The notes below the pieces were generated by a model. The model had not been told where the DNA came from. It searched no databases and was given only the letters and a program-made list of their open reading frames with translations. A DNA stretch of 64,000 nucleotides from Cryobacterium sp. Y82 (GTDB lineage Bacteria > Actinomycetota > Actinomycetes > Actinomycetales > Microbacteriaceae): contig NZ_PJJJ01000028.1 in assembly GCF_002929495.1 (NCBI RefSeq), forward strand, positions 1 to 64,000. Reading direction: 5' to 3'. Every line of letters starts with the position of its first letter. Positions within the stretch are counted from its first letter, which is position 1. A program made the position numbers and the translations under genes. Below are positions 3,621 through 27,474 of this stretch, piece by piece.

Positions 3621-4356
3621 GCTGCGCGGGAACCAAACCCAGTCGAGTGGCGATGACGACGGCCTCCAATTGTGAGTGTGCTCCGAGCTTGCCTAGGATC
3701 GCTTTGACGTAGCCTCGGCAGGTGTTCTCAGAAATTCCGAGAACTTTGGCGTTGGCCCGCACATCGGAGCCTTCGCCCATAAGGCGGAGCACAGCGAGCT
3801 CACGCTTCGTGAGATCGGGAAAGGGGATCTCTTCGCTGCGCTGCCGCCGTCGGGCGCTCAACAGGCTGACGAGGGACGGATGCACAATGAAACCGCCGAT
3901 GCGCGCGTGCCGCAGGGTATCGAGCACCGTTGCGAGCGATCCGTCCTTGGGCAGGAACGCGCACACCCCGATTGCGGCGGCCTGCTCAAGGGCCTCGAGG
4001 GCAGGGTCGCCCGTGAGGATGACAATGCGGGTATGAGGCGCGCGGGCGAGGATCGCGGTGGCCGCGACGAGGCCACTGCCGTCGGGCAAGTGGTAGTCCA
4101 TGACGACGACGTCGGGGAGCAGCTCCAAACAGGCGGCGATGCCGCTGGCCACGCTGTTAACCGAACCCACGCTGCACAGGTCGGGTTCACGATTGAGGGA
4201 ACCCATGAGCAGTTCGGCGAAGGTCGTGTGGTCATCGACGATGAGTATGCGGATTTGTCCCAGGACCGTCTGACCCACGGCGGCGGAACCAGTTAGGGAG
4301 GCGGTAGCGGTAGTCCCCTGCACGCTGGGTTCGATCGGGGACATCTGCGCGGTCAT
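3613..4356 (-). CDS. LuxR/NarL-family response regulator
   Basis: Response regulator of 247 residues with an N-terminal extension of about 35 residues. The receiver domain shows ILIVDDH (acidic pocket), the phospho-acceptor Asp in VVVMDYHLPDGSG, the conserved Thr in VILTGD and Lys in FLPKDG. The C-terminal LuxR helix-turn-helix reads LTKRELAVLRLMGEGSDVRANAKVLGISENTCRGYVKAILGKLG. It is the upstream gene of the pair with the sensor kinase (8-nt overlap). The 159-nt gap between its start and the end of the SARP gene probably holds the promoter. GAGAGG lies about 9 nt before the ATG. ATG codon 5 is an alternative start. Confidence 0.92.
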   Translation of the reverse strand: MTAQMSPIEPSVQGTTATASLTGSAAVGQTVLGQIRILIVDDHTTFAELLMGSLNREPDLCSVGSVNSVASGIAACLELLPDVVVMDYHLPDGSGLVAATAILARAPHTRIVILTGDPALEALEQAAAIGVCAFLPKDGSLATVLDTLRHARIGGFIVHPSLVSLLSARRRQRSEEIPFPDLTKRELAVLRLMGEGSDVRANAKVLGISENTCRGYVKAILGKLGAHSQLEAVVIATRLGLVPAQHV

Positions 4357-9503: not shown

Positions 9504-10127
9504 ATGAAGCTCCAAGTAGCAATGGACGTATTGACCACCGAAGCCGCGCTCACGCTGGCCGCTCAGGTTGCCCCGCACGTTGACATCATCGAACTCGGCA
9601 CCCCGCTAATCAAGGCAGAGGGCCTGCGCGCCGTCACCGCGATCAAGGCCGCGCACCCCGACAAGATCGTCTTCGCCGACCTCAAGACCATGGATGCCGG
9701 CGAGCTCGAGGCCGACATCGCCTTCGCCGCCGGCGCCGACCTCGTGACCGTGCTCGGCACGGCCGGTGACAGCACCATCATCGGAGCCGTCGCTGCTGCA
9801 ACCAAGCACGGCAAGGGCATCGTTGTCGACCTTATCGGCGTTGCCGACAAGGTCACCCGCGCCCGCGAGGTCACCGCGCTCGGCGCTCAGTTCGTGGAGA
9901 TGCACGCTGGTCTTGACGAGCAGGCCGAGCCCGGCTTCTCGCTCGCAACGCTGCTCAACCAGGGCGAGACCGCCAAGGTTCCCTTCTCCCTCGCGGGCGG
10001 CGTGAACCTGTCGACCATCTCTTCGGTGCAGCGCGCCGGAGCAACGGTCGCCGTTGCCGGCGGAGCAATCTACGGCGCCGAGGACCCAGCCGCTGCCGCT
10101 GCCGCCCTGCGCGCCGCGATCATCTAG
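9504..10127 (+). CDS. hxlA: 3-hexulose-6-phosphate synthase
   Basis: Member of the orotidine-phosphate-decarboxylase superfamily, 207 residues, condensing formaldehyde with ribulose 5-phosphate. It begins MKLQVAMDVLTTEAAL. It carries IIELGTPLIKAEG, the family active-site motif D-x-K-x-x-D in FADLKTMDAGE near residue 55, and C-terminal phosphate-binding loops SLAGGVN and VAVAGGAIYGAEDP. It forms an operon with hxlB and is followed by a strong hairpin terminator. Formaldehyde source: the oxidase gene immediately downstream is a candidate (inference). Confidence 0.95.
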   Translation: MKLQVAMDVLTTEAALTLAAQVAPHVDIIELGTPLIKAEGLRAVTAIKAAHPDKIVFADLKTMDAGELEADIAFAAGADLVTVLGTAGDSTIIGAVAAATKHGKGIVVDLIGVADKVTRAREVTALGAQFVEMHAGLDEQAEPGFSLATLLNQGETAKVPFSLAGGVNLSTISSVQRAGATVAVAGGAIYGAEDPAAAAAALRAAII

Positions 10128-10144
10128 TCCCAGCGATTAATCTG

Positions 10145-10172
10145 GTGCCGTCCCGCTTCTGCGGGGCGGCAC
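10145..10172 (+). terminator. Hairpin terminator of the hxlB-hxlA operon
   Basis: A 12-bp stem (GTGCCGTCCCGC with GCGGGGCGGCAC, one T-G wobble) with a TTCT loop lies 17 nt after the hxlA stop. No U-tract follows. Confidence 0.8.
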
Positions 10173-10210
10173 TACTGCGTTAAGCGCATGCCCGGCCTCT
10201 CCCGCAAAAC

Positions 10211-10284
10211 CGGACGGGGCCCGGGCCCCGTCCATGGGCCCAGTCTATAAACTGGGCCCGAGGATCGGGCCCGGGCCCCGTCCG
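10211..10284 (+). repeat. Compound palindromic leader upstream of the FAD oxidoreductase
   Basis: Three nested GC-only elements are present: a perfect 22-bp palindrome at 10212-10233, a hairpin at 10236-10259 with a 9-bp stem (GGGCCCAGT/ACTGGGCCC) and CTATAA loop, and at 10267-10283 a 17-bp direct copy of the second part of the first palindrome. Because that core is self-complementary, 10211-10228 can also pair with 10267-10284 as an 18-bp outer stem around the central hairpin. The outer stem ends beside the GGAGGAGAGG ribosome-binding site at 10284-10292. It may form alternative RNA structures or be a protein-binding site. Confidence 0.75.
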
Positions 10285-10301
10285 GAGGAGAGGACGACAC
10301 C

Positions 10302-10322
10302 ATGGCGAGCCGCCACACATGA
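10302..10322 (+). CDS. Six-codon upstream ORF coupled to the FAD oxidoreductase
   Basis: ATG at 10302 follows GGAGAGG by 8 nt, the best ribosome-binding site in this leader. The encoded peptide is only Met-Ala-Ser-Arg-His-Thr. Its TGA stop (10320-10322) overlaps the ATG of the oxidoreductase (10319-10321) as ATGA, the usual arrangement for translational coupling. The downstream ATG itself has no Shine-Dalgarno at proper spacing. This suggests that translation of the mini-ORF delivers ribosomes to the main gene. Confidence 0.5.
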   Translation: MASRHT

Positions 10323-11749
10323 GCAGCACGATTTTCGACCGAGCCCGGCCCGCAGCATCCGTGGTGGCCGCTGCGCTCGTCGGTACCCGGCAGAGCTCCT
10401 TTTGGCTCGATGACCTCGTTCCGCGCGCGAACTATCCCCGCCTTTCGGGCAACCTCAACTGCGACCTCGCTATCGTCGGGGGCGGCTACCTGGGCTTGTG
10501 GAGCGCGGTGCTCGCGAAGCAGCAGAATCCGGCGGCGCGAGTGGTGCTGCTGGAGGCGCGCACGGTGGGCTGGGCAGCATCTGGACGCAATGGCGGTTTC
10601 TGCGAGGCGAGTCTCACCCACGGCGAAGAGAACGGGCGCCGCCGTTGGCCAGAGGAGATCGACCGGCTGACGGAGCTCGGCCAGGAAAATCTCGACGAGA
10701 TGGAGCACGCCGTGGCGAGCCTCGGCCTCGACTGCGATTTCGAGCGCACCGGAGCCATCGACCTGGCCGTCGAGGAGCACCAGGTTCAGTGGTTGCGCGA
10801 AAAAAACACCGACGACAACACCGTCTTTCTCGATGCTGCGGCACTGCAGGCCGAGGTGGCTTCGCCGACCTACCTCGCGGGGGTCTGGCACCGCCGTAGC
10901 AACGCCCTCGTGCATCCGGGCAAGCTGGCCGCCGAACTGGCGCGCGTGGCCAGCAATCTCGGGATTGAGATTTTCGAGCACTCGCTCGTGCAGGCTCTCG
11001 ACACCGCAGGGCTCACGCCGGCGCAGGGCACCCGAATCGTAACAGCGGGCGGCACCGTGACCGCCCAGAAGACAGCGCTCGCCACGAACGTTTTCCCGTC
11101 GCTGCTCAAGCGCAACAAGCTCGCGACCGTGCCGGTCTACGACTACGTGCTCATGACCGAACCGCTCGATGCGAGCAAGCTCGCCTCGATCGGCTGGCAG
11201 CACCGGCAGGGCCTCAGTGACCTGGCCAACCAGTTTCATTACTACCGGCTGAGCGCCGACAACCGCATTCTGTTCGGCGGCTACGACGCCGTTTATCACT
11301 ACGGCGGCCGGGTGCGCAGGTCCTACGAGAACCGACCTGAAAGCTTTGAAAAGCTCGCGAGACACTTCTTCACGACGTTTCCGCAACTGGCCGGCGTGCG
11401 ATTCAGCCACAAATGGGCCGGTGCCATCGACACCTCGACCCAGTTTTGCGCTTTCTTCGGCCAAGCACGCCAAGGGCGCATCAGCTACGCGGCCGGATTC
11501 ACCGGCCTCGGCGTGGGGGCCACCCACTTCGCGGCCAAGGTCATTCTGGACCAGCTGGCCGACCGCACCACAGAACGCACTGAACTGGCCATGGTGCGGG
11601 GCCGTCCACTTTCATTCCCCCCGGAACCCATGGCATCCGCTGGAATTCAGGCCACTCGGTGGGCGCTGGGCCGCGCCGACCACAACCGGGGAAAACGTAA
11701 TTCCCTGCTCAAGACCCTTGACGCGCTGGGGCTTGGCTTCGACTCCTAA
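10319..11749 (+). CDS. FAD-dependent oxidoreductase (DAO / gamma-glutamylputrescine-oxidase-like)
   Basis: Flavoprotein of 476 residues. The dinucleotide-binding fold is at about residues 45-75 (CDLAIVGGGYLGLWSAVLAKQ, with the distal acidic residue in VVLLEA), followed by the DAO-family GWAASGRNGGF motif that contacts FAD. A C-terminal GFTGLGVGATHFAAKVILDQL closes the FAD site. The family oxidises amines or amino acids, releasing H2O2 and an aldehyde or imine. Relatives include PuuB and sarcosine-type oxidases; the substrate is not determinable here. Its position after hxlA, behind a separate structured leader, allows the idea that it produces formaldehyde from an N-methyl substrate. An upstream six-codon ORF overlaps its start. 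Confidence 0.88.
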   Translation: MSSTIFDRARPAASVVAAALVGTRQSSFWLDDLVPRANYPRLSGNLNCDLAIVGGGYLGLWSAVLAKQQNPAARVVLLEARTVGWAASGRNGGFCEASLTHGEENGRRRWPEEIDRLTELGQENLDEMEHAVASLGLDCDFERTGAIDLAVEEHQVQWLREKNTDDNTVFLDAAALQAEVASPTYLAGVWHRRSNALVHPGKLAAELARVASNLGIEIFEHSLVQALDTAGLTPAQGTRIVTAGGTVTAQKTALATNVFPSLLKRNKLATVPVYDYVLMTEPLDASKLASIGWQHRQGLSDLANQFHYYRLSADNRILFGGYDAVYHYGGRVRRSYENRPESFEKLARHFFTTFPQLAGVRFSHKWAGAIDTSTQFCAFFGQARQGRISYAAGFTGLGVGATHFAAKVILDQLADRTTERTELAMVRGRPLSFPPEPMASAGIQATRWALGRADHNRGKRNSLLKTLDALGLGFDS

Positions 11750-11759
11750 ACGCCAGGTC

Positions 11760-12455
11760 TCAGCCGAGCAGCAAGCGCCCGAGCTGATCGGTCGAGTGCA
11801 CGACGGCGGTCGCTGCGGCGGCTTCGGCGGGGGAGCCGTAGCCCCACTCCACCAAAATGGCGGGAATACCGTTGACCTGGGCGCCGATGGCGTCGTAGCT
11901 GCGGTCGCCGACCATGACGGCGCCGCTGGTGTCGACGCCGGTTGCGCCGAGGCGCGCCAGGGCCTCGGCGACGATGTCGGCCTTGTGGCTGCGGGTCTCG
12001 TCAGCGGATGCACCGACCGTTGCCGTGAAGTACTTCGCGAGGTCGAAGTGCGTGAGGATGGCGATCGCACTCAGTTCCGGCTTGCTGGTGGCCAGGGCTA
12101 GAGGAATGCCCGCTGCGTGGATGCGCTCGAGCAGGCCAGCGATGCCGGGATAAACCGCGGTATCGAGAGCTGCGGCACCGTGATACTCGTTCCGGTAGAC
12201 CGCGATGGCCTCGTGAGCCTCGTCGGGGGTCATACCCGCGTATTCCTGAAAGGCGTCGAGCATGGGCGGGCCGACATAGGCGAGCAGTTCGGAGGCCGAG
12301 GGAACGGGGCGGCCGAGCAACGTGAAGGTGCGGGCCAAAGAGCTGGTGATGGCCGGGGCGGAATCGGTGATGGTTCCGTCGAGGTCGAAGAGGATGGCGC
12401 TCCAGGTGCGCGTCAGAGTGGGATTCACTCGCACCAGCCTAGGCGATCCAGACAC
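11760..12455 (-). CDS. HAD-family hydrolase (phosphoglycolate-phosphatase-like)
   Basis: HAD phosphatase of 231 residues with a C1-type helical cap. Motif I is ILFDLDGTITDS (catalytic Asp pair) near residue 21, motif II is ALATSK near 120, motif III Lys is in HKADIV near 156, and motif IV is VMVGDRSYDAIGA near 180. The start is taken as GTG at 12455 with GGGGGA about 4 nt upstream; a GTG eight codons later is possible. It is convergent with the FAD oxidoreductase, with only 10 nt between stops. The substrate is probably a small phosphorylated metabolite such as phosphoglycolate (family knowledge, not shown). Confidence 0.9.
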   Translation of the reverse strand: MSGSPRLVRVNPTLTRTWSAILFDLDGTITDSAPAITSSLARTFTLLGRPVPSASELLAYVGPPMLDAFQEYAGMTPDEAHEAIAVYRNEYHGAAALDTAVYPGIAGLLERIHAAGIPLALATSKPELSAIAILTHFDLAKYFTATVGASADETRSHKADIVAEALARLGATGVDTSGAVMVGDRSYDAIGAQVNGIPAILVEWGYGSPAEAAAATAVVHSTDQLGRLLLG

Positions 12456-16573: not shown

Positions 16574-17611
16574 ATGCGCATACCCTTCCCCGTCGCCGCC
16601 CTCCTGGCTGGCGCCTCTGTACTCGCCCTTGCCGGCTGCACCCAGGCCGCCGAGCCGTCAGCATCAGCGGAAACCAGCGATAACGCCTTCACCCTCTACT
16701 CGGGTCGCGACGAAGCACTCATCCAGCCGCTGATCGACCAGTTCGAAGAGCAGAGTGGCATCAGCGTCGAGGTACGCTACGGCAACACCGCCGAGCTCGG
16801 CGCGCTGCTCCTCGAAGAGGGCGAGGCCACTCCAGCCCAGGTGTTTCTCGCGCAAGATGCCGGCGCGCTCGGCGCCCTCGCCAACGCCGACCTGTTCGCG
16901 ACGCTGCCAGCAGCGACGACCGACAAGGTCCCGGCCGGATTCACCTCGACCGACGATACCTGGGTCGGCGTCACCGGCCGCGCTCGCGTGATCACCTATG
17001 ACAGCCAAGCAATGACTGCGGCCGACGTGCCTACCAGTGTTGATGCCTTCACCGACCCGGCCTGGGCCGGAAAGTTTGGCATCGCGCCGACCAACGCGAG
17101 TTTTCAGGCCTTCGTCACCGCCTATCGCGTGCTGAACGGTGAAGAAGCCGCCGACGAGTGGGTCGCCGCCGTTGCCGCCAACGACCCGGTCATCTTCGAC
17201 AACAACCGCGCCATTCTCGCCGCCGTCAACGATGGCATCATCGAGGCCGGACTCATCAATCATTACTACTGGTTTGCCATGGCAGCTGAGACCGGCGCAG
17301 AAAACATGCGCGCGCAGCTGTCCTACCCGGAGGCCGGCGACGCTGGATCCATCGTGAACGTGGCCGGCGCCGGCCTGCTCGCCGGAGCGGCCGAAGACGC
17401 CGACGCGCTCGAGTTCATCGACTATCTCGTCGGCACCGATGCCCAGCAGTATTTCGTCGACGAGACCTACGAGTACCCGCTCATCGCCGGTATTGACGCC
17501 CCGGCCGGCTTGCCCGAGCTTGACTCGCTCGTCAACCCCGACCTCGATCTGGCTGACCTCGACACCCTCGCTGACACCCAGGCCCTGCTCGGCAAGCACG
17601 GCCTGATCTAA
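16574..17611 (+). CDS. Iron(III) ABC transporter substrate-binding lipoprotein (FbpA/FutA type)
   Basis: Periplasmic-binding-type lipoprotein of 345 residues. The signal peptide ends in LALAGC (lipobox, Cys22). The mature protein has the family's opening FTLYSGRDEALIQPLIDQFEEQSGI and WVGVTGRARVITYDS, and near residue 235 the motif GLINHYYWF with the tyrosine pair that coordinates ferric iron. GGAG lies about 5 nt before the ATG. It heads a three-gene unit with the permease and ATPase and has an iron box in its promoter, both supporting ferric-iron uptake. Confidence 0.93.
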   Translation: MRIPFPVAALLAGASVLALAGCTQAAEPSASAETSDNAFTLYSGRDEALIQPLIDQFEEQSGISVEVRYGNTAELGALLLEEGEATPAQVFLAQDAGALGALANADLFATLPAATTDKVPAGFTSTDDTWVGVTGRARVITYDSQAMTAADVPTSVDAFTDPAWAGKFGIAPTNASFQAFVTAYRVLNGEEAADEWVAAVAANDPVIFDNNRAILAAVNDGIIEAGLINHYYWFAMAAETGAENMRAQLSYPEAGDAGSIVNVAGAGLLAGAAEDADALEFIDYLVGTDAQQYFVDETYEYPLIAGIDAPAGLPELDSLVNPDLDLADLDTLADTQALLGKHGLI

Positions 17612-17674
17612 CATTGCAGCAGTGAAGGCGCGGTTGCGGGCTCGGGTCGGCGGCCGAGCCCTACCCTGCGCCGG

Positions 17675-19264
17675 GTGCCTCTCGTGACCGAGTTGCTTAT
17701 TCCGCCGCCCGAAACGGATGCCCCGGCACCGTCCCGCGCGCCCGGTCGGTATCACTTCGGCGCGCCGCCCTGGCTGCTCGTGCTTGCCGCGCTCTGCGCG
17801 GCGACCGCCGCCATTCCGCTGGTCTACCTCGTTGTACGCACGACCGAGGCGGGGCTCACCGAATTGCTGGACACCCTGATGCGCCAGCGCGTGCTTCAGC
17901 TCACGGTCAATACGGTGCTGCTCGCCGCGACCGTCACCCTGTCGTGCCTCGTGCTCGGCACGGTCTGCGCGTGGGTGCTCACGCGCATCCGCCTGCCTTT
18001 TCAGCGTACGTTGCTGCTGGTTTCCGCGCTGCCGCTCGCGGTTCCAAGCTATCTGGCCGCTTACGGCTGGCTGGTCTGGTTTCCCCACCTCAATGGGTTC
18101 TGGGCCAGCTGGTTCGTCATGACCATGGTCTGCATCCCCTACGTGACGCTGCCGGTCGCTGCGGCGCTGCGCGGGGCATCCGCAGATCTGGAATCGGTGG
18201 CCCGCACCCTCGGTCGTGGCCCGTTTCGCGCGTTCGCAGCCGCGACCTGGCCGCAGATTCGCCCGGCTGCGATCGCCGGGGCACTGCTGGTGTGCCTCTA
18301 CTCGCTGAGCGATTTCGGGCTGGTCTCGATGCTGCGGTTTCAGACGCTCACCTGGGGAATCAATGCCGCCTACGGTGCGAGTTTCGACCGCAACCAGGCC
18401 GCGCTGCTCGCCCTCGTGCTCGTCGTGCTCGCCCTCGTGGTCGTGGCCGGCGAACGTCGCAGCCGCCGCCAAGTCTCCAGTGTTCCCGGTCGCAGTACCA
18501 TGCCGGTGCGCGCACCCGGTCATACCTGGCCCATCTACGTCACGCTGCTTCTCGCCGCGCCGCTCGCCGGGGTCGTGGTTCCCGTGGTCGGCTTGCTCAG
18601 TCGCCTGCTCGAGGCCGAAACCCTGCGCGCTATCGATGTGTCACGTTTGATCGAAGCGATTGGCGCGACCCTCGGGCTGGCCCTGGCGGCCGCAGTGATC
18701 GCGGTGCTCGTGGCGCTGCCGATCGCCGCGCTCGCCGCCCGGTACCGCGGAAGGCTGGTCGCCATGATCGAGGCCGTCGGCTTTCTCGGCCATGCTCTTC
18801 CCGGCATCGTCGTGGGCCTCTCCCTCGTATTCTTCGCGCTTGCCGCGGTGCCAATGTTCTACCAAACCTCGCTCGTGCTCGTCTTCGCCTACGTTGTTCT
18901 ATTTATGCCGCGCGCCATCGGCAGCGTGCGCAGCGGCATCGCGGCGGTACCGACGAGCCTCGGTGACGTTTCGCGCATGCTCGGTCTCTCACCGTTTCAG
19001 GCCTGGTGGCGGGTGACCGCACGCCTCGCCTTGCCCGGCATTGCGATCGGCGCACTGCTCGTGGCCATCTCGGCCATGAAAGAATTGCCAGCGACGCTCC
19101 TGCTGCGGCCGACGGGTATATCAACGCTCGCGACCGAGTTGTGGAGCCGCACGGCCCTGTTCGAGTTCGGCGCTGCGGCGCCATACGCGGCGGCGCTCGT
19201 GCTCGTGGCGATGGTGCCCGCGGTCCTGCTGTCCGGCATCCGCGGCACAGCAAGGGAGAACTAG
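17675..19264 (+). CDS. Iron(III) ABC transporter permease (FbpB type, fused double permease)
   Basis: Integral membrane protein of 529 residues with about 12 helices, made of two homologous binding-protein-dependent permease halves as in FbpB/AfuB. EAA-like loops are visible in each half (ESVARTLGRGPFRAFAAATWPQIRPA near residue 170, GDVSRMLGLSPFQAWWRVTARLALPG near 430). The start is GTG at 17675. It lies 63 nt after the substrate-binding gene, and its TAG stop overlaps the GTG of the ATPase gene by 1 nt. Confidence 0.92.
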   Translation: MPLVTELLIPPPETDAPAPSRAPGRYHFGAPPWLLVLAALCAATAAIPLVYLVVRTTEAGLTELLDTLMRQRVLQLTVNTVLLAATVTLSCLVLGTVCAWVLTRIRLPFQRTLLLVSALPLAVPSYLAAYGWLVWFPHLNGFWASWFVMTMVCIPYVTLPVAAALRGASADLESVARTLGRGPFRAFAAATWPQIRPAAIAGALLVCLYSLSDFGLVSMLRFQTLTWGINAAYGASFDRNQAALLALVLVVLALVVVAGERRSRRQVSSVPGRSTMPVRAPGHTWPIYVTLLLAAPLAGVVVPVVGLLSRLLEAETLRAIDVSRLIEAIGATLGLALAAAVIAVLVALPIAALAARYRGRLVAMIEAVGFLGHALPGIVVGLSLVFFALAAVPMFYQTSLVLVFAYVVLFMPRAIGSVRSGIAAVPTSLGDVSRMLGLSPFQAWWRVTARLALPGIAIGALLVAISAMKELPATLLLRPTGISTLATELWSRTALFEFGAAAPYAAALVLVAMVPAVLLSGIRGTAREN

Positions 19265-20571
19265 TGGGCTGGGTAACGATCGAGGCGCTGAGCGTCTCTT
19301 ATGGTGACACGCATGTGCTTGACGACGTCAGCCTGCGCATCCCGCGCGGCTCACTCGTGGCCGTTCTCGGTCCAAGCGGATGCGGCAAGACCACCCTCCT
19401 GCGCGCGGTCGCGGGGCTGTTGCCGGTCGCGTCCGGCACAATCAGGGTCGGTGGGCGCCTCGTCACCGGCCCCGGCGTGCAGCGCGCTCCGGAAAAGCGC
19501 GGCATGGGCTGGGTTCCCCAGGACGCCTCCCTGTTTCCGCACCTGTCGGTGGGCGAAAACATCGGCTTCGGACTGCCGCGCACGAAGCAGAACGACGACC
19601 TTTACTGCGAACCCGGCGAGGCTTCTGGCCGAGTCGGCGGACTGCTGGCCGGACTCACCCGGCGTGGTCGCGCCAACCGCGCCCGACCGGCGTCGGGGCT
19701 GGCCGGAACAGCGGCCCACGCGAGCCCCCTCGCCGCCGTACCGATCAGCCCCGACCGCGGCCGCCAGACCAGCCGCGCGGCCCGCATCATTGAGCTCGCT
19801 ACCATGGTGGGCCTGACCGAACTCGTGGATCGTGCCCCCTCGCAGCTCTCCGGCGGTCAGGCCCAGCGGGTGTCGCTGGCCCGGGCGCTCGCTCCCCGGC
19901 CCGACCTCATGCTGCTCGACGAACCGTTCGCGGCCCTCGACCCGCTGCTGCGTTCGGCCCTGCGCACCGAGGTCGCTGCCCTGCTGCGTGGGCAGCACAA
20001 CACGAGCCTGCTCGTGACCCACGATCAGGAAGAGGCGCTGTCCCTCGCCGACTTCGTGGCCGTGATGCGCGGCGGCAAGATTCTGCAATTCGGCACCCCA
20101 GCGGATGTCTATGAGCGCCCGGTCGACCCCTGGGTCGCCGGGTTCGTCGGCGACACCGTCGAACTCGACGGCCAGTGGAAGGACGGCAGGGTGGAGTGCG
20201 CCCTGGGCTCACTCGCAGCGGACTGGATGGGCGTGCCGGCCGTGCACGTGAAGCCAGAACGAGAGCGTCCGTTAGGTGGGCCGATGGGCGAGCGGGGCGC
20301 AGCGCTCACTCCCGCCGATGGAACGGGCGTGAGCGTGCTGCTTCGCCCCGAATGGCTGACCCTGGGCGCGCGAGGTTCGGCGCAACCCACAACGGATGCC
20401 GTCGTCACAGCCATCGCCTACGCCGGCCACGATGCCCTGGTCAGCCTCGCTCTCGGAGACGCTGAGAAAACGGCGGTGCGCGCGCGCATCGCAGCGCCCG
20501 ACCTGCCCCGCATCGGTGACCGCGTGACGCTCGGCATTTGCCAGAACGCCCTGGCCTACCCGCTCGGTTAA
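19264..20571 (+). CDS. Iron(III) ABC transporter ATP-binding protein with internal insert
   Basis: ATPase of 435 residues. Walker A is GPSGCGKTT near residue 36, the Q-loop is WVPQDASLFPH, the signature is LSGGQAQR near 195, Walker B is LMLLDEPFAALD, and the switch His is LLVTHDQEEAL. A TOBE-like C-terminal region covers about 280-435 (VLLRPEWLTLG, TAIAYAGHDALVSLAL). Between the Q-loop and the signature, a low-complexity Arg/Ala/Gly-rich insert of about 60 residues (after LPRTKQNDDLY) replaces the usual short linker. The GTG start at 19264 overlaps the permease stop and follows AAGGGAG by 5 nt; the frame is open further upstream, but that region is the permease gene. Confidence 0.92.
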   Translation: MGWVTIEALSVSYGDTHVLDDVSLRIPRGSLVAVLGPSGCGKTTLLRAVAGLLPVASGTIRVGGRLVTGPGVQRAPEKRGMGWVPQDASLFPHLSVGENIGFGLPRTKQNDDLYCEPGEASGRVGGLLAGLTRRGRANRARPASGLAGTAAHASPLAAVPISPDRGRQTSRAARIIELATMVGLTELVDRAPSQLSGGQAQRVSLARALAPRPDLMLLDEPFAALDPLLRSALRTEVAALLRGQHNTSLLVTHDQEEALSLADFVAVMRGGKILQFGTPADVYERPVDPWVAGFVGDTVELDGQWKDGRVECALGSLAADWMGVPAVHVKPERERPLGGPMGERGAALTPADGTGVSVLLRPEWLTLGARGSAQPTTDAVVTAIAYAGHDALVSLALGDAEKTAVRARIAAPDLPRIGDRVTLGICQNALAYPLG

Positions 20572-20805
20572 CGCCGTCCCTGTAGATCGTTGCCACGGCT
20601 GGTTGGCACGTGTCACTTTTCATGAGGCGCAGCCTTAGGGAAACAATTGAGTGTGCCGCGTACATCGCGCGCGCGTTGCATTCCGTTGCCTCTATTAATG
20701 CCGACGTAACCCCGCGTCTTCTTTGGAGACACGTTTGATTATTGTCTGATTCACCTTGATTTCTTAACGTAACTCCTATCAAGTACTGGAGGCGGGAAAT
20801 CAGAG

Positions 20806-21843
20806 ATGTCAACAGTGAGCATGATGCGTCTGCGACGCAAACGGCGACGGCTGGAGCGAATCTGGCTCCCAACATTATATTTAGCGCCGACGCTGCTGCT
20901 GTTGTGGGCTTTTGATATATACCCCATTTTTCTTTCAGCGTGGATGAGTCTGTGGCGCTGGGGCATCAAGGCGGAAGAATTCATAGGTCTAGATAACTAC
21001 AGCAGAGTTTTCGACGAGATTGGCAGTGGCCCCGGTGGTACCCCTGGCGAGGTAGGCAACAGCCTTCTCGTTACGGCCTTTTATGTGGTCGGCACCGTGC
21101 CGGTGACGATAATTATCGCCTTCGTCATTGCCAATATGCTGAATTCAAGAATTCGCTTCCTGGCAGTTCTTCGTACCGCATACTTTGTTCCGTACATTAC
21201 GTCGACCGTTGCTGCTGGCCTGGCTTTCGTTTGGCTCCTTAACCCTCAAATTGGTGTGTTGAATTCTGCCCTCGAGTCCGTTGGCTTACCAGCGCAACAG
21301 TGGTTGCTGGATCCAGAACCTGTAGGTCCCAAGGTCCTTTCCATGTTCGGTATTGGTTGGTCAGAAAACCTGCCGGGATTCTTGGAAGGACCCAGCGTTG
21401 CTTTGGTATGCGTCATTGTCTTCAGCGTGTGGAATTCGTTGGGTTTTGCTGTCGTCATCATCCTTGCTGGTTTGGTCACGATTGATCCCCAAGTGAAAGA
21501 AGCCGCCCGGATGGACGGCGTGAACTCCTGGCAGATGGCCACCCGCATCACGATGCCGTTGGTATCGCCCACGCTGTTTCTTCTGCTCATCGTTTCTACG
21601 ATTAGTTCTTTTCAAAGTTTCAACGAGGTCTACGTGTTGACCAGCGGCGGTGGCTACGGGGCAGGCGCCGGCTCTCCGCTGGATTCGACCCTGACGCTTC
21701 CCGTGCTCATTTTTCGCCACCTCTACGAGCGCCCCAGTTCGGTGGGTTTCGCAGCGGCGCTGTCCATGCTGCTGTTTGTTCTGGTGCTGGGTGTCGTTCT
21801 CCTGCAGTTTCGACTTGCGGAGCGGCGTGTGCACTATGAATAG
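20806..21843 (+). CDS. ABC transporter permease (UgpA/MalF-like)
   Basis: Membrane protein of 345 residues with about six helices and a basic N-terminus (RLRRKRRRLERIW). The EAA loop KEAARMDGVNSWQMATRITMPLVSPT near residue 235 marks it as a carbohydrate-type importer permease. It is the first gene of a unit with a second permease and a solute-binding lipoprotein, with no ATPase gene, so a shared MsiK/UgpC-type ATPase encoded elsewhere is expected. A GGAGG lies about 14 nt upstream of the ATG, longer than usual. The sequence is visibly richer in A/T than the flanking genes. 234 nt without a gene precede it. Confidence 0.9.
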   Translation: MSTVSMMRLRRKRRRLERIWLPTLYLAPTLLLLWAFDIYPIFLSAWMSLWRWGIKAEEFIGLDNYSRVFDEIGSGPGGTPGEVGNSLLVTAFYVVGTVPVTIIIAFVIANMLNSRIRFLAVLRTAYFVPYITSTVAAGLAFVWLLNPQIGVLNSALESVGLPAQQWLLDPEPVGPKVLSMFGIGWSENLPGFLEGPSVALVCVIVFSVWNSLGFAVVIILAGLVTIDPQVKEAARMDGVNSWQMATRITMPLVSPTLFLLLIVSTISSFQSFNEVYVLTSGGGYGAGAGSPLDSTLTLPVLIFRHLYERPSSVGFAAALSMLLFVLVLGVVLLQFRLAERRVHYE

Positions 21844-21899
21844 ACCCCGCCGTAATTTCGCGTCAGCATCCCATCACATTCAAAAGGCGGAACACCCCT

Positions 21900-22871
21900 G
21901 TGGCACTTCAGACGATTGAGCGAGCGCCGAGTGAGATAGCTCAGCAGTACTTAGGTGTCGACAATTCGACGAGGCCTGCGCGAAAACATTCGGCTCCGCG
22001 GTGGTATCGAGGAGTGCGCCGAGTAATCCTGTATTCCGTTCTGATCGCCGGTGCGGTGGTCATGCTGTTCCCATTCTTTTGGATGGTTTCTAGCTCATTG
22101 AAGACATTCCAAGAGGTGAATCTGTCGCCGCCAACGATGCTGCCGGCAGACCCGCAATGGTCTAATTACGCGGAAGCGTGGGGGTCGCCGCCTTCAGGCT
22201 TCGGGCGCTATTTCTTAAATAGTCTCGTGGTTGCCGTCGTTGGCACCGCAATACAACTGTTCACTGGAATTATGGCAGCTTATGCATTTGCCCGTTTGAA
22301 ATTCCGGTTCAGTAATGTGCTGTTTATGCTCGTTCTAGCAACGATGATGATACCGTTCGAAACGAGAATTGTTCCCAATTATGTGCTGATTCGCCAGATT
22401 CCTTTAATGGGTGGAAATGATATTTTCGGGGAGGGTGGTGCCGGCCTATACGACACCTATGCGGGAATGATCTTGCCCGGTGTCGCCAGTGCATTTGCCG
22501 TTTTTTTGCTGCGCCAGGCTTTTATGGCAGTTCCTCGCGATTATTGGGACGCCCTGCGCATGGATGGCGCATCTCACTGGACATTCCTTTGGCGCGTACT
22601 TATTCCTATGACCATGCCTGCGGTGCTGACCGTGGTGTTGTTTGGATTTATCGGGCGGTGGAATGAACTCTTGTGGCCGTTGATCGCCACCCAGAGCGAA
22701 TCTATTCGGCCCGTGCAACTTGGACTGATGTTATTTTCCGGCGATGAGGGGTCGCTGTACCACCTGCTAATGGCTGCGACGACGTTGGTTGCGGTGCCAG
22801 GCATTTTCTTCTTCTTATTCGTTCAACGCCGGTTCATAGAAGGGCTCACGGCCTTTGGTGTCAAAGGTTAG
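21900..22871 (+). CDS. ABC transporter permease (UgpE/MalG-like)
   Basis: Second permease of the importer, 323 residues, with a cytoplasmic N-terminus of about 40 residues and six predicted helices. The EAA loop is WDALRMDGASHWTFLWRVLIPMTMPA near residue 220, and the typical FPFFWMVSSSLKT sits at the end of the first helix. The start is GTG at 21900, preceded by AAGGCGG. It lies 56 nt after the first permease. As with its neighbour, the third-position base use is less GC-biased than in the rest of the window. Confidence 0.9.
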   Translation: MALQTIERAPSEIAQQYLGVDNSTRPARKHSAPRWYRGVRRVILYSVLIAGAVVMLFPFFWMVSSSLKTFQEVNLSPPTMLPADPQWSNYAEAWGSPPSGFGRYFLNSLVVAVVGTAIQLFTGIMAAYAFARLKFRFSNVLFMLVLATMMIPFETRIVPNYVLIRQIPLMGGNDIFGEGGAGLYDTYAGMILPGVASAFAVFLLRQAFMAVPRDYWDALRMDGASHWTFLWRVLIPMTMPAVLTVVLFGFIGRWNELLWPLIATQSESIRPVQLGLMLFSGDEGSLYHLLMAATTLVAVPGIFFFLFVQRRFIEGLTAFGVKG

Positions 22872-22949
22872 CTATTTATTATCTGGGTTCTGTCACGTCC
22901 CCAGCCTGAACACAAACGATTCCACTACGTGCATCGGAGGCACAAACCA

Positions 22950-24296
22950 ATGAATATAGCTAAAAAAACTGCTCTGACTTCATTCTTCCTCGCTGGAACC
23001 CTTCTGCTTACTTCTTGTGGCCTGGGAGCCGCTGCCAGTTCCGGTGAGGCGGCCATCAGTGCAGAAAGTGTTGATGGTACTGATCTGCCCACAGGGGTGG
23101 AGATTGATTTCTGGCACATCCAAGCGACCATCTATGGTGAGGCGATCACAGAGATGGTTCAGGAATTCAACGCCACCAACGAGTGGGGGATCGTGGTGAA
23201 CGAGTCATTCAAAGGGTCCTACCAGGAGCTGAATCAGGCCGTCCGAGCGGCTCTCGCCGGTGGGGGCGCCCCCGATGTGTCGATGGCGTATGAGAACGAT
23301 GTGCTTGAGTACGTGGCAAATGATGTCATCGTGCCGTTGGACTCGTATCTGGAGAGTGATAATTTTGGCGTCTCCGAAGACGACCTGGGAGACCTCGTCG
23401 ACGGTGTCCTGGCCCGGCAGAGAGTGGATGCCTATGACGGGCATACCTTGTCGTGGCCCCACGGAAACTCGAGCATGGGTCTGTATTACAACGCTGACTT
23501 GTTTGCTGAGGCCGGCATCGCCGAGCCGCCGGTCGACTGGGACGAATTCTTGGCTCAAGCCCGTCAGCTGAAGGAAACGACCGGCTTGGCCTACGCGGCT
23601 ATGGGGCCGGCCAAGAACGCTGTCTTTTACAACATGCTGCGATCCAAAGGCATCACGCCCTATGACACAGGCGCGGCGACGACCGAATTCACTTCGCGGG
23701 AGTCGATTGAATCGTTGGAGTTGCTGTCACAGCTCTTTACGGAGGAGCTCGTCTACACGGCAGCAGACACCGAACAGGAGTTCACTAACGAGCGCACCGC
23801 CACCGAGATTGGGACGACAGCGCGCACTTCGACGAAAATTGACCAGATTGGCGACAAGTTCGATTGGTCCGTGGCGTTGACTCCTCAAGAAACCGATGAG
23901 CCCATTACCCAGCTGTTCGGAGGCAACCACGTCATTCTGGCCTCAGCGGATCCCGAGCAGGAGCTTGCTGCCTGGCTATTCATGCGATGGTTTGCCGATA
24001 CCGACGCACAATCCATCTATGCTGCCCGAACCGGCTACTCGCCGGCCGTGAAAAGCGCTTTGGACACTCCGCTGTTGAGCACGAATTACCAGGAAAACCC
24101 GCAGAAAGCGGATGCTTTCGAGAATGTATTTGTCAACGCGCAGATCATGCCTCCCACTGCGGCTGGCAATGCAATCGACGACATGGTCACGGGAATTGTC
24201 GAAGAAGTTGTTTTGGGTTGGGTGACACCGCAGGAAGCGGCCGAGCGGATGGACGCTGAGGCGACCAGACTGCTTCAGTCCGCACCGCAGAACTGA
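22950..24296 (+). CDS. ABC transporter extracellular solute-binding lipoprotein (UgpB/MalE family 1)
   Basis: Solute-binding protein of 448 residues with a lipoprotein signal (FFLAGTLLLTSC, lipobox LTSC near Cys22). The mature region has family-1 features: DFWHIQATIYGEAITEMVQEFNATN, ALAGGGAPDVSMAYENDVLEY, LYYNADLFAEAGI and a late GGNHVILASADPEQELAAWLFMRWF. The ATG at 22950 is 9 nt after GGAGG; a GTG seven codons earlier opens the same frame but overlaps that ribosome-binding site. The UgpB-like architecture suggests a sugar, polyol or glycerophosphoester ligand. The three hydrolase genes that follow (24306-27419) argue for a phosphorylated ligand; this is inference. Confidence 0.9.
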   Translation: MNIAKKTALTSFFLAGTLLLTSCGLGAAASSGEAAISAESVDGTDLPTGVEIDFWHIQATIYGEAITEMVQEFNATNEWGIVVNESFKGSYQELNQAVRAALAGGGAPDVSMAYENDVLEYVANDVIVPLDSYLESDNFGVSEDDLGDLVDGVLARQRVDAYDGHTLSWPHGNSSMGLYYNADLFAEAGIAEPPVDWDEFLAQARQLKETTGLAYAAMGPAKNAVFYNMLRSKGITPYDTGAATTEFTSRESIESLELLSQLFTEELVYTAADTEQEFTNERTATEIGTTARTSTKIDQIGDKFDWSVALTPQETDEPITQLFGGNHVILASADPEQELAAWLFMRWFADTDAQSIYAARTGYSPAVKSALDTPLLSTNYQENPQKADAFENVFVNAQIMPPTAAGNAIDDMVTGIVEEVVLGWVTPQEAAERMDAEATRLLQSAPQN

Positions 24297-24305
24297 GTAT
24301 CGACT

Positions 24306-25226
24306 ATGTCAACGACTTCGACACAGGCAAGCCCAACGCCGATTATCCCAAGGACGACCAACCTGACGCGGCCGACCCCGCTGGACAAACTTGCTGACGT
24401 GAAAGTCGTGCTTTTCGACCTTGACGGCACGCTGCACGATGACCCTCGAGTCACCGATTATTACGCGAGGATCCTGGAAGAGGACATGCCTGGCGGCACA
24501 GGTCGCGGCCTTCGAGACGAGGTCACCGACGTTATCCAGGGGAACCATCCCGCCGCGCGGCCGGGTTGTTTTGTGGAACCGACCCTCGGAATCGCGATCA
24601 ACGCCCCGCACTGGACCGCGGAAACAGCAGTGGACTGGGTGGGCAATCCGGTGTCTTTGCCATCTGATCTACCCCCCGGTCCGATTCGCCATGATGGAGC
24701 GTTGCGTTACCTGGGCGACCACTGGCAAATAATAGGGGCACTGGCGGCGCGGCGCGGCGCGGACGCCCGCTCACTGCGTGAGGCCTTCGTGCGTGCTCGC
24801 CGTTTTGCCAATGACCCCAGCACTACGCTCATCCGTTCTGAATCTCTGGATGAAGTGCTACAGCGCCTCAGCCAGGGGCGCCGGCTCTTGCTGGCCACCA
24901 ACACCACCGAAGAGCTTGCCCGACCCTTGGTGCAACGACTGAATATGCGCCCGACCTTCGAAGTAATACGTTTCGATGCGCATAAGCCTGCGGGCTGCGC
25001 GGAATTGATCGCCCACGCCAAAGAGCAGTGGAACACTGCGCCTTCGGAAGTTTTGGTGATCGGCGACAACCTGTGGAATGACTTGCTTCCCCCAGCCGAG
25101 CAGGGCTGTCGCACAGTGCACATAGACCCGCTCGGAATGGACCTATCGAGGCGCTGGTCCAGTGCCCGCTTTGACAATTTTTCGGCCTTCGCGGCCGCAC
25201 TGAAGGAGATTCCCGATGGCATCTGA
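24306..25226 (+). CDS. HAD-family phosphatase of the transporter cassette
   Basis: HAD hydrolase of 306 residues. Motif I is VVLFDLDGTLHDDP near residue 35 (Asp nucleophile and general acid), motif II is LLATNTTEE near 198, motif III Lys is in DAHKPAG near 227, and motif IV is VLVIGDNLWNDLLPP near 250. A large cap of about 150 residues separates motifs I and II. It starts 9 nt after the binding-protein stop and overlaps the following metallo-hydrolase gene by 11 nt. It likely dephosphorylates an imported or liberated phosphomonoester. Confidence 0.87.
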   Translation: MSTTSTQASPTPIIPRTTNLTRPTPLDKLADVKVVLFDLDGTLHDDPRVTDYYARILEEDMPGGTGRGLRDEVTDVIQGNHPAARPGCFVEPTLGIAINAPHWTAETAVDWVGNPVSLPSDLPPGPIRHDGALRYLGDHWQIIGALAARRGADARSLREAFVRARRFANDPSTTLIRSESLDEVLQRLSQGRRLLLATNTTEELARPLVQRLNMRPTFEVIRFDAHKPAGCAELIAHAKEQWNTAPSEVLVIGDNLWNDLLPPAEQGCRTVHIDPLGMDLSRRWSSARFDNFSAFAAALKEIPDGI

Positions 25227-26679
25227 TACCGAACCGAACCTCACATTCTTCAACGGAACCAGCACGATCGGAGGGGTCCAGGCTTCGGTCCAAATCGGGG
25301 ATTCCGCGGTATTTTTTGACTTTGGAATAACACCGAATCCCACCGGCGCCCTGTTCTCCCGTTCCTCCCCGGCGCCCGTAGTGGGCAGTCTGGCGGCACA
25401 TTTACGGGCCGGGATGGCACCGCTCGTGGAAGGTCTCTACGACCCGGCTCAGCTCGCAGCAACCGGTGGGAGCGTTGCATCTACCGTCGAACCGATGGCC
25501 GGGCGGGGAAGGATGTTGGACCAGTCATCCGTTCTGGAGCACGCGAAAAACACGGCAATCTTCGTCAGCCACATTCACAATGACCACTGCGAGCTGCTCC
25601 CATTTGCCAGCCCCGATGTGCCCGTCCTGATGAGTGCCGACAGCGCAGCCCTGTATGCCGGGCTGACCGACGTGGGGGCGCTGCGCCCCACCCCGGCTTC
25701 GGTCCGCGGTCTGGTTGATGGCGAACACGTCTCCATTGGCGGGATGGACCTCGAACTGATCCACGTTGACCACGACATTCCCGGAGCAGCAGGTTTTATC
25801 CTTCAGGCCGGGGACCGGCGAATCGCCTGGACTGGCGATTGGCGCGCTCACGGCCACGTACCTGAACGCATGGCAGCCTTCGCCGAGCGGGCGGCGGGGG
25901 TAGACCTGTTGATCACCGAAGGCACAACGCTCCGACCTGACTCCAGCCCGGCTCAGTCTCTTTCGGAGACCGAAGTCGCCCAGAGGGCAGACCGGATCCT
26001 GACCACCACCGACGGATTAGCCTTCGTCACGCCCTATCCCCGCAACCTTCGCCGTTTAGCGAGCCTGCGTGATGCGGCCGCAGCAAACGGCCGGACTTTG
26101 GTTCTGCGACACGAAACACTCGCCGGATGGCGTGCCGCCGTCACACACGGATTATCCGCCCCGCACCCGAACGACGGTGGTGCCCCTGTCGCAGTGTTAG
26201 CCACCGGAGATGCGAACACGCACCCCACGGCCGGCCATACTCAGGTCACGATTGACGATCTCCGCCAGAACCGCAACGATTTCCTGGTAGAACTGCAGGT
26301 TCCCGACCGTTGGGTGGCACTGGCCGTCGGGGCTGGACCCGATGATGTGCTGATCCACAGCAACGGACAGCCGCTGGGCTCCTGGGACCCGGAATGGACG
26401 TCGCTCATGGCATGGGTGCAGGCCCTCGGCCTGGACTTTGTCTGGCTCGACTCCGGCGGGCATGCCGCTCCCGACGACCTTGCCTGGCTCGTTGAAACGA
26501 TACGCCCTACGTCAATAGCCGCCGTGCACAGCGCGCACCCGCAACTCTTCCCGCGCACCTCAGCGCAGCTCATCCTTCCCACCCGCGGACAGCCCTTCAC
26601 GCTCTCCGACCGCCTCCCGCGTGCGCTCGGAACGCGCGGCGCGGATGTTGAAAGGACCATGATTCCATGCGTTTTGTAG
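25216..26679 (+). CDS. Metallo-beta-lactamase-fold hydrolase (RNase J/beta-CASP-like)
   Basis: Protein of 487 residues with an MBL core. The zinc motif HIHNDHCE is near residue 117 (H-x-H-x-D-H), then IHVDHDIPGAAGF, the bridging Asp in WTGDWRAHGH near 212, and a late SGGHAAPDDLAWLVETIRP and AAVHSAHP near 430, matching the C-terminal His motifs of RNase J-like MBL proteins. The region between (about 235-400) would hold the beta-CASP-like cap. A segment of about 50 residues (NPTGALFSR to EPMAGRG) precedes the zinc motif. Overlaps of 11 nt with the HAD gene and 13 nt with the next gene show tight coupling. A phosphodiester substrate is likely, but its identity is unknown. Confidence 0.82.
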   Translation: MASDTEPNLTFFNGTSTIGGVQASVQIGDSAVFFDFGITPNPTGALFSRSSPAPVVGSLAAHLRAGMAPLVEGLYDPAQLAATGGSVASTVEPMAGRGRMLDQSSVLEHAKNTAIFVSHIHNDHCELLPFASPDVPVLMSADSAALYAGLTDVGALRPTPASVRGLVDGEHVSIGGMDLELIHVDHDIPGAAGFILQAGDRRIAWTGDWRAHGHVPERMAAFAERAAGVDLLITEGTTLRPDSSPAQSLSETEVAQRADRILTTTDGLAFVTPYPRNLRRLASLRDAAAANGRTLVLRHETLAGWRAAVTHGLSAPHPNDGGAPVAVLATGDANTHPTAGHTQVTIDDLRQNRNDFLVELQVPDRWVALAVGAGPDDVLIHSNGQPLGSWDPEWTSLMAWVQALGLDFVWLDSGGHAAPDDLAWLVETIRPTSIAAVHSAHPQLFPRTSAQLILPTRGQPFTLSDRLPRALGTRGADVERTMIPCVL

Positions 26680-27419
26680 TAATGACACACAATATTTGGG
26701 CTGACAACCGCTGGCCAGATCGCGAGCTGGCACTTCGCGCCCTGCTGACTGCGCGTCGCCCCGACATCTATGCCGTGCAGGAACTCCGGCCCGTAACGCG
26801 CGACGTGATCGACAGTGTGCTCACCGGGCACCGAAGGGTAGACGACGACGAACGCGGATGGAGCCATGAAAGCTCGATTTGGTGGAACGCCGAGCTATTC
26901 ACCGAGGTCGAGCACGGTGCGTTGGATATCGGAATCGGTGTGGATGAGACCCATCACGACCGGAAACTCTTCTGGGTTCGGCTCGCTACAGAGGATGGCA
27001 CGACAATCGTCGTCAGTACCGCGCACTTTGCTTTCCCTGGGACGGAGCGTGAGCTCACCGAACATGTCAACCCGCGGATCGCCCAATCGGAAGCAGCAGG
27101 AGTTGCCCTGGAAACACTGGGTGCGCCTGGTGAACCAGTGCTCTTCATGGGCGACCTCAACGAGTCGTGGCACGTTCTCCGAATACTGCACGCAGCAGGT
27201 CTGCACGATTCCTACTCCGCTCTGGGGGTCGTACCCGGACCCACCTGGCCCACTGTTCCTACCTGGCCGACGCCCACCGCGCCGTGGGTCATCGACTTTC
27301 AATTTCATCGGGGCAACGTTCGTGCGCTGACGACAGAGATAGTTGACTTTTTCCACGGAGATATCGCACCGTCAGACCACAAACCCGTGGTCACCACATA
27401 CGGGTTTGACATCGAGTAG
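26667..27419 (+). CDS. Endonuclease/exonuclease/phosphatase-family hydrolase
   Basis: EEP-fold metal-dependent phosphoesterase of 250 residues. Key motifs are THNIWADN (Asn near residue 9), AVQELRP (metal-binding Glu near 39), VVSTAHFAF (His near 118), FMGDLNESWH (Asp-x-Asn near 164), WVIDFQFHRG (Asp near 209) and the terminal SDHKPVVTTY (catalytic His). The family hydrolyses phosphodiesters in nucleic acids, sphingomyelin or inositol phosphates. There is no signal peptide, so it acts in the cytoplasm. It is the last gene of the 20806-27419 unit and converges on the MATE gene. Confidence 0.88.
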   Translation: MRFVVMTHNIWADNRWPDRELALRALLTARRPDIYAVQELRPVTRDVIDSVLTGHRRVDDDERGWSHESSIWWNAELFTEVEHGALDIGIGVDETHHDRKLFWVRLATEDGTTIVVSTAHFAFPGTERELTEHVNPRIAQSEAAGVALETLGAPGEPVLFMGDLNESWHVLRILHAAGLHDSYSALGVVPGPTWPTVPTWPTPTAPWVIDFQFHRGNVRALTTEIVDFFHGDIAPSDHKPVVTTYGFDIE

Positions 27420-27474
27420 CTGCGCGGGCTCAGCGTAGGGGCGTTGGCGGCTTCTGCCTATACGCGGCGCGACG

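Follow-up and report, generated by a model that had tools for sequence, protein, structure and literature searches.

A mobile six-gene cassette of Cryobacterium sp. Y82 that joins a CUT1-type importer to three phosphoesterase-type folds, probably for scavenging a phosphate-ester nutrient

Introduction

The ATP-binding cassette (ABC) importers of the CUT1 type are described as carrying mono-, di- and trisaccharides and glycerol phosphates, and a Thermus CUT1 protein as binding uridylyl-3'-5'-phosphoguanosine (PMC12718374). Amongst the closest described systems, Ugp (UgpBAEC with UgpQ) is built around such an importer, while the agrocinopine system of Agrobacterium combines an ABC importer for a sugar phosphodiester (AccA-BCDE) with a phosphodiesterase (AccF) and a phosphatase (AccG; PMC4526662). 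A third point of reference is EF2904 of Enterococcus faecalis, listed as a hypothetical protein among the structures with metallo-beta-lactamase (MBL) and beta-CASP domains (PMC3095777). Here, we describe a six-gene cassette in a 64,000-nucleotide stretch of Cryobacterium sp. Y82 (contig NZ_PJJJ01000028.1, positions 1 to 64,000; hereafter the window), in which two CUT1-type permeases and a substrate-binding lipoprotein are followed by a HAD-superfamily hydrolase, an MBL and an enzyme of the endonuclease/exonuclease/phosphatase (EEP) fold (Table 1). The cassette is probably a horizontally exchanged scavenging kit by which a phosphate ester is taken up as a nutrient, the likeliest substrate being a phosphodiester that contains a sugar or polyol.

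Results

A scan of named genomes returned five loci with an MBL 70–83% identical to that of the window. All six genes are present with their order kept in Cryobacterium sp. Y57 (L004; L and G numbers are our handles for loci and genomes) and in three Arthrobacter loci (L005, L007 and L008), the latter placing the whole cassette in a second family, while in the fifth locus (L006) HAD, MBL and EEP are present and a contig end truncates the remainder. The MBL had no match in five other genomes of the same genus that were sampled. The insertion site was compared in one genome, G078 (the right-hand marker was found in one of five same-genus genomes at the limit used), where the iron-type transporter genes to the left and the MATE and pnt genes to the right run collinear with those of the window (84–87% DNA identity). 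In a blastn comparison of window positions 8001–36000 with this sister genome (L104), homology ends at 20564 and restarts at 27474, closely bracketing the six genes, and the same slot of the sister species is filled by a different block of ~10.1 kb, in which genes resembling those for IclR, P450 and PEP synthase were recognised by eye. Because the gene order recurs in four named loci and the sister genome carries another block between the same flanks, the six genes are a single, inherited unit, and the slot looks like a place where catabolic cassettes are exchanged.

The GC content at third codon positions is 0.58–0.70 in the six genes, compared to 0.80–0.89 in the four flanking genes measured; a TraG/type IV secretion coupling-protein gene adjoins L004, and transposase-like genes occur near L005, L006 and L008 (by eye). 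A search of plasmids at the DNA level with the whole unit gave no match. In L006, the intact EEP gene is succeeded by a second, truncated copy of its 3' end (2955–3128), with a transposase-like gene close by. Just upstream of the cassette, the window holds a separate iron/2-aminoethylphosphonate-type ABC importer (16574–20571; substrate-binding protein, fused permease and ATPase by eye), which is not a part of the cassette because it is also present in the sister species.

Within the unit, the genes are spaced by +56, +57, +9, −11 and −13 nt, and both overlaps are identical in Y57. The six genes and the 11- and 13-nt overlaps of HAD, MBL and EEP agree with the original prediction, which was made from the window alone. 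All six proteins match Pfam above the curated cut-offs (BPD_transp_1 twice, SBP_bac_8/SBP_bac_1, HAD Hydrolase, Lactamase_B_2 and Exo_endo_phos). The open reading frame of the binding protein opens at a GTG at 22929; as the Y57 counterpart begins MNMIKK and a lipobox and lipoprotein signal can be recognised by eye from the ATG at 22950, the latter is probably the true start. No kinase and no glycerophosphodiester phosphodiesterase (GDPD) was detected by Pfam among the six proteins, as predicted for a GDPD-type UgpQ, and three GDPD genes lie elsewhere in the genome on other contigs. Also as predicted, the unit contains no ATPase gene. A genome search restricted to ATPases with the OB_MalK domain found a single gene, which lies on contig 24, so that a shared ATPase likely drives the unit.

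Full-length relatives of the MBL are rare, occurring in 3 of 299 genomes of the family, 8 of 396 of the order, 6 of 245 of the family of Arthrobacter H5 and 5 of 386 of the phylum, each count including the centre genome; for the order, partial RNase J-type matches (e.g., L017–L038, approximately profile positions 103–303) were dropped first. Outside of the window clade, neighbourhoods were read for 24 relatives (16 from the two family searches and the order search, L039–L049 and L060–L064; four from the phylum, L092–L095; and four, L050–L053, of the ten plasmid records that matched). At least one CUT1 importer gene adjoins the MBL in 18 of these (L039–L051 and L060–L064). All three importer genes were detected by search in 13 of the 18; the binding protein of L051 was found by eye, and the importer set is partial on the contigs of L046–L049 (4.6–8.9 kb). 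The smaller recurring set is importer plus MBL, and importer linkage marks one MBL subfamily rather than MBLs generally, the border of that subfamily having been set after the neighbours were seen. In L062, an FGGY-family kinase and an NAD-dependent glycerol-3-phosphate dehydrogenase-like gene (9575–12181) lie ~1.2 kb past the MBL on the opposite strand.

While the importer stays, the phosphatase fold beside it swaps. A HAD gene adjoins in 8 of the 18 importer-linked loci (L041–L045, L047, L049 and L060), placed ahead of a permease, immediately ahead of the MBL or behind it. Searched with the HADs of these clusters (threshold 1e-4, same-locus matches ignored), the 18 MBL loci (240 kb) gave these eight matches and 318 kb of other DNA (18 other loci and the remainder of the window, a control unmatched for CUT1 importers) gave none. 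The place of HAD is taken by an inositol-monophosphatase gene in two loci (L039 and L040) and a 5'-nucleotidase-type phosphoesterase gene accompanies the MBL in one (L050, the EF2904 cluster); histidine phosphatase joins the list of folds through the EEP loci described below. In L039, an amidohydrolase gene (675–2252) and a RidA-like gene (3478–3960; the latter named by eye) separate the inositol-monophosphatase gene from the importer. In the MBL tree, the window clade, a main clade and the f20 clade stand apart, each with HAD-linked members, and HAD linkage maps with four changes, on a topology with weak support at several deep forks and a long branch for EF2904. We infer that HAD was the ancestral partner of the MBL.

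With the cassette whole in a second family and HAD found at 8 of 18 loci but nowhere in the 318 kb of unmatched control DNA, the linkage of the six genes exceeds chance. These data largely refute the notion that a sugar importer came together by coincidence, on a mobile segment, with house-cleaning hydrolases unrelated to it; the block is exchangeable whole, so chance joins could travel along with it, but the importer accompanies the MBL in three quarters of the relatives read, HAD recurs as counted above against its unmatched control, and the gene overlaps are retained in Y57, making coincidence very improbable. The original prediction had staked itself on the hydrolases staying linked to the transporter in relatives, and on reading the synteny the linkage held, with the three hydrolases and the importer together in Arthrobacter as well as in Cryobacterium. 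Its three-hydrolase set needs to be narrowed, as it is whole in the window clade, while divergent relatives share the importer and MBL, HAD in part, and keep EEP apart. The sequential breakdown of an imported phosphodiester that it proposed is partly supported, in that the importer is kept with a phosphatase partner of changing fold, as that proposal would predict; this constancy of the importer is the main argument for import followed by stepwise phosphoester hydrolysis.

The closest solved relative of the window MBL is EF2904 (PDB 2az4; phmmer, 2e-37). A profile of 19 members, EF2904 among them, finds 2az4 at 1e-138, and RNase J chains come next at ~1e-24 to 1e-20 (best nine). The profile alignment to 2az4 and DR2417 places SHIHNDH (HxHxDH), H186, D208, TEGT, SGGHA and H438 in the window protein, which corresponds to the beta-CASP layout of HxHxDH with motif A, motif B (SGHA) and motif C (His). 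In score, the MBL reaches 38.8 bits against the TIGR00649 (RNase J) cut-off of 400. Similar to 2az4 over its full length and linked to a transporter, it belongs to the EF2904 subfamily; judged by its sequence, it is a beta-CASP protein with EF2904 as near kin, RNase J-like but by score no RNase J.

An EF2904 cluster was recovered in L050 (OL539428.1, 29867–47153), where the MBL matches EF2904 over all 429 residues (2.4e-291) and the gene order is ATPase, permease, permease, MBL, binding protein and 5'-nucleotidase-type phosphoesterase. The last protein begins MQIKILATSDMHG, shows no signal peptide by eye, and is annotated as a 2',3'-cyclic-nucleotide 2'-phosphodiesterase with 5'-nucleotidase domains. 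Although titled E. coli plasmid pCTX-M-55, the DNA of L050 looks enterococcal and chromosomal (full-length EF2904 and LiaFSR genes) and the contig is probably mislabelled. A scan of viral contigs with the L050 protein found no relative.

This kinship brings in nucleic-acid scavenging, in which the RNase J-like MBL and EEP would cut imported oligo- or dinucleotides and HAD, as a nucleotidase, would dephosphorylate them. The closest characterised kin of the MBL are ribonucleases that share the pattern of SGHA and a motif C histidine, the cyclic-nucleotide annotation in the EF2904 cluster points the same way, and so does the dinucleotide bound by the Thermus CUT1 protein (PMC12718374). These points are offset by the distance of the MBL from the RNase J cut-off and by the inositol-monophosphatase and histidine-phosphatase partners, which suit sugar or polyol phosphates better; no gene of nucleoside or base catabolism was noticed by eye in the clusters, for which no dedicated search was made. 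On balance we regard nucleic-acid scavenging as improbable.

The remaining hydrolases of the cassette retain their active-site motifs. HAD keeps DxD, TN, K and GDNxxND (read by eye) and has a ~50-residue extra insert in alignment with the HADs of the sister loci. In EEP, N9, E39, H120, D163/N165, D210 and D237/H238 are invariant among 12 aligned sequences, and the catalytic Asn/Glu/His/Asp set together with an Exo_endo_phos score of 63.8 bits (cut-off, 24.5) assign it to the EEP superfamily. Its closest PDB chains by profile are 4c1r, named a mannosyl-6-phosphatase (1.6e-4), and Tdp2, both weak matches, and an AlphaFold model based on five close sequences has a mean pLDDT of 43.3.

EEP was found paired with this MBL in the window clade only, and the search of the divergent MBL loci gave no EEP relative. 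Relatives with 37–46% identity occur in 8 of 248 genomes of the order and 4 of 386 of the phylum (own genome counted each time), and 11 loci were examined (L079–L086 and L100–L102; eight of the nine non-own matches at order level, G487 being left out). A histidine phosphatase adjoins EEP in seven (L080–L086; by Pfam in L081, L082, L083, L084 and L086, by similarity in L080 and L085), accompanied by an Opp-type importer in five (L080, L082, L083, L085 and L086) and a CUT1 importer in two. In L101, CUT1-type permeases adjoin EEP. EEP, phosphatase and importer thus form a second, separate set, and in the window clade EEP is combined with the MBL/HAD set. Genes for FAD-dependent oxidoreductases lie beside three EEP relatives (L081, 5981–7372; L101, 6031–7596; L079, 8455–10971; PF12831 in two and DAO/GCV_T in one).

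Further phosphoesterases surround the cassette in two Arthrobacter loci, L005 (26–3018 and 12301–13158) and L008 (10508–14998), with PhoD, type I phosphodiesterase and GDPD_2-like genes whose products have signal peptides by eye. Being closely related, the two loci amount to a single observation, and these genes are absent from the examined DNA of L004, L006 and L007. PhoD genes also lie ~4–6 kb from EEP in L084 and L081. Such outer enzymes fit a release of the ester outside of the cell ahead of import.

Table 1. Position and sequence support of the cassette genes and of the exchanged block in the window.
Feature	Position	Strand	Support
Permease A, CUT1-type ABC (UgpA/MalF-like), 345 aa	20806..21843	+	Pfam BPD_transp_1; UgpA model 80.6 bits, below cut-off
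Permease E, CUT1-type ABC (UgpE-like), 323 aa	21900..22871	+	Pfam BPD_transp_1; UgpE model 139.4 bits, below cut-off
Substrate-binding lipoprotein, UgpB-like	22950..24296	+	Pfam SBP_bac_8 1.4e-34; top PDB match E. coli UgpB 6x84, 3e-25
HAD-superfamily hydrolase, 306 aa	24306..25226	+	Pfam Hydrolase 1.4e-13; alignment with sister HADs
Beta-CASP MBL, EF2904 subfamily, 487 aa	25216..26679	+	PDB 2az4 2e-37; profile 1e-138
EEP-fold enzyme, 250 aa	26667..27419	+	Pfam Exo_endo_phos 2.5e-17; alignment
Exchanged block	20564..27474	.	blastn against sister genome L104; contrast in third-position GC content

Discussion

Taken as a scavenging kit, the cassette would work as follows. The lipoprotein would capture a phosphoester, and the two permeases would import it, powered by a MalK/MsiK-type ATPase presumably encoded elsewhere and shared. 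In the cytoplasm a diesterase would open the ester, for which the beta-CASP MBL is the likeliest candidate; EEP may serve as a second diesterase or as a sugar phosphatase, for the other half of the substrate or for a related one. HAD would then strip the phosphate from the monoester product, yielding carbon and phosphate for the cell.

For the three importer proteins, the best NCBIfam matches are to UgpA, UgpE and UgpB, as the original label of a UgpABE-like importer implies, with scores of 80.6, 139.4 and 92.4 bits against equivalog cut-offs of 335, 297 and 411; ‘UgpABE-like’ is a fair label and ‘Ugp’ is not. Several observations weigh against the scheme, one of them in the pocket of the binding protein. 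Pocket places follow the E. coli UgpB numbering. In the CUT1 binders described, the phosphate is contacted by two Tyr and two Ser, common to binders of glycerol 3-phosphate, glycerophosphocholine and dinucleotide, and the glycerol by two Trp, Glu, Gly and Arg (PMC12718374). At these places the alignment gives the window protein Tyr, Ser, Thr, Tyr, Glu and Gly, whereas the Trp clamp and the Arg present in UgpB are missing (at ~25% identity, the Trp places are gapped or non-aromatic and the Arg is replaced). The same six residues occur in the Thermus sugar-binding protein 7c16, and the pocket was rejected as evidence of substrate. An alpha-glycoside binder, 7c16 is entered as sugar-binding protein. 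With residues common to glycerol-phosphate binders and a sugar binder, then, the pocket does not separate a phosphoester from a sugar.

The pocket makes room for a rival in which a neutral oligosaccharide is imported and the hydrolases act on intracellular phosphorylated intermediates, or the MBL works as a lactonase or as some other hydrolase of non-phosphate substrates. Such a cargo lies within the range of CUT1 importers, which also carry mono- to trisaccharides (PMC12718374), and the pocket matches the sugar binder 7c16 at six positions. An alpha-glucosidase-like (GH13-like) gene adjoins the MBL in L039 and L040 (by eye), a further point against phosphoester import, and L041 includes an RpiR-type regulator. 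Regulators of the RpiR type often sense sugar phosphates, however, which speaks against this rival. The six genes are also without a kinase, while the importers are accompanied by up to three phosphoesterase-type folds and, in two Arthrobacter loci, by PhoD and phosphodiesterase genes. We consider the neutral-oligosaccharide reading unlikely, though of the rivals it is the most credible.

The other points against import and hydrolysis of a phosphoester concern the breadth of the pattern. No importer is nearby in 6 of the 24 MBL relatives (L052, L053 and L092–L095); these look like other MBL lines. L052 (Rhizobium) and L053 (Ochrobactrum) match over 68–70% of the query only and the two of L092–L095 included in the tree (L092 and L095) separate with 99/99 support. 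The importer was likewise not seen in 3 of the 11 EEP loci (L079, L100 and L102, the last a 4-kb contig). No phosphatase was seen nearby by eye in L061–L064, nor was one identified in L046, L048 or L051. The MBLs of L046 (2930–4411) and L048 (5229–6650) have degenerate metal-binding motifs (STLYLDH, TGN) and still stand beside CUT1 permeases; having lost several metal ligands, they are unlikely to act as diesterases there, and a non-catalytic role is possible. As for phosphate-dependent control, which the original prediction had suggested looking for, a scan for GTTCACC-N4-GTTCACC (the pho-box consensus; up to three mismatches) found 5 sites in the window compared to 5.95 expected, which is chance level, with none in 20571–20806; upstream alignment and a repeat search gave no convincing shared operator. 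Lastly, the literature matches listed include no assayed activity for enzymes of these exact subfamilies. Among the same matches, no title or opening of an abstract describes the gene set, in keeping with the earlier statement that no such system was known.

A broader proposal can be put forward tentatively, as one joint claim that we hold to be possible but somewhat doubtful. In it, the EF2904-type beta-CASP proteins are an RNase J-like branch that has moved off nucleic acids to become a small-molecule phosphodiesterase of nutrient uptake, working with a CUT1 importer and a phosphatase of any one of several unrelated folds; in the window clade, this set and the independently widespread EEP set would have merged to give a mobile cassette with three hydrolases, its substrate a sugar or polyol phosphodiester that bacteria are not yet known to use as a nutrient. 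If true, this would give a role to EF2904, whose solved structure is still called hypothetical (PMC3095777), and to a family of EEP proteins that is uncharacterised. A further gain would be a route of organophosphate uptake that is overlooked by GDPD-based searches, and an example of unrelated phosphatase folds substituting beside a constant importer.

Compared with known systems, the unit does not qualify as a Ugp system. The two share a CUT1 importer and a UgpB-like binding protein, with E. coli UgpB as the top PDB match, but the importer proteins fall far under the equivalog cut-offs, UgpQ or another GDPD is missing from the unit, and the pocket is without the Trp clamp and Arg; it is for these three reasons that we place it outside of Ugp. 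RNase J and other beta-CASP nucleases share with the window MBL the MBL and beta-CASP layout, HxHxDH, SGHA and the motif C His, whereas the window MBL scores approximately one tenth of the family cut-off and, unlike the distant MBLs of L092–L095, resides in transporter clusters. The EF2904 cluster is similar in its two permeases, EF2904-type MBL, binding protein and phosphoesterase (5'-nucleotidase-type), and differs in having its own ATPase and in lacking both HAD and EEP. In mode of working, the best analogue would be the agrocinopine system, with AccA Opp-like, AccF GDPD-like and AccG inositol-monophosphatase-like. Both systems would couple an ABC importer to hydrolysis of a sugar phosphodiester, and the five EEP loci with an Opp-type importer and a phosphatase resemble it further; the window differs in its CUT1 importer and its MBL, EEP and HAD, and the likeness is one of layout.

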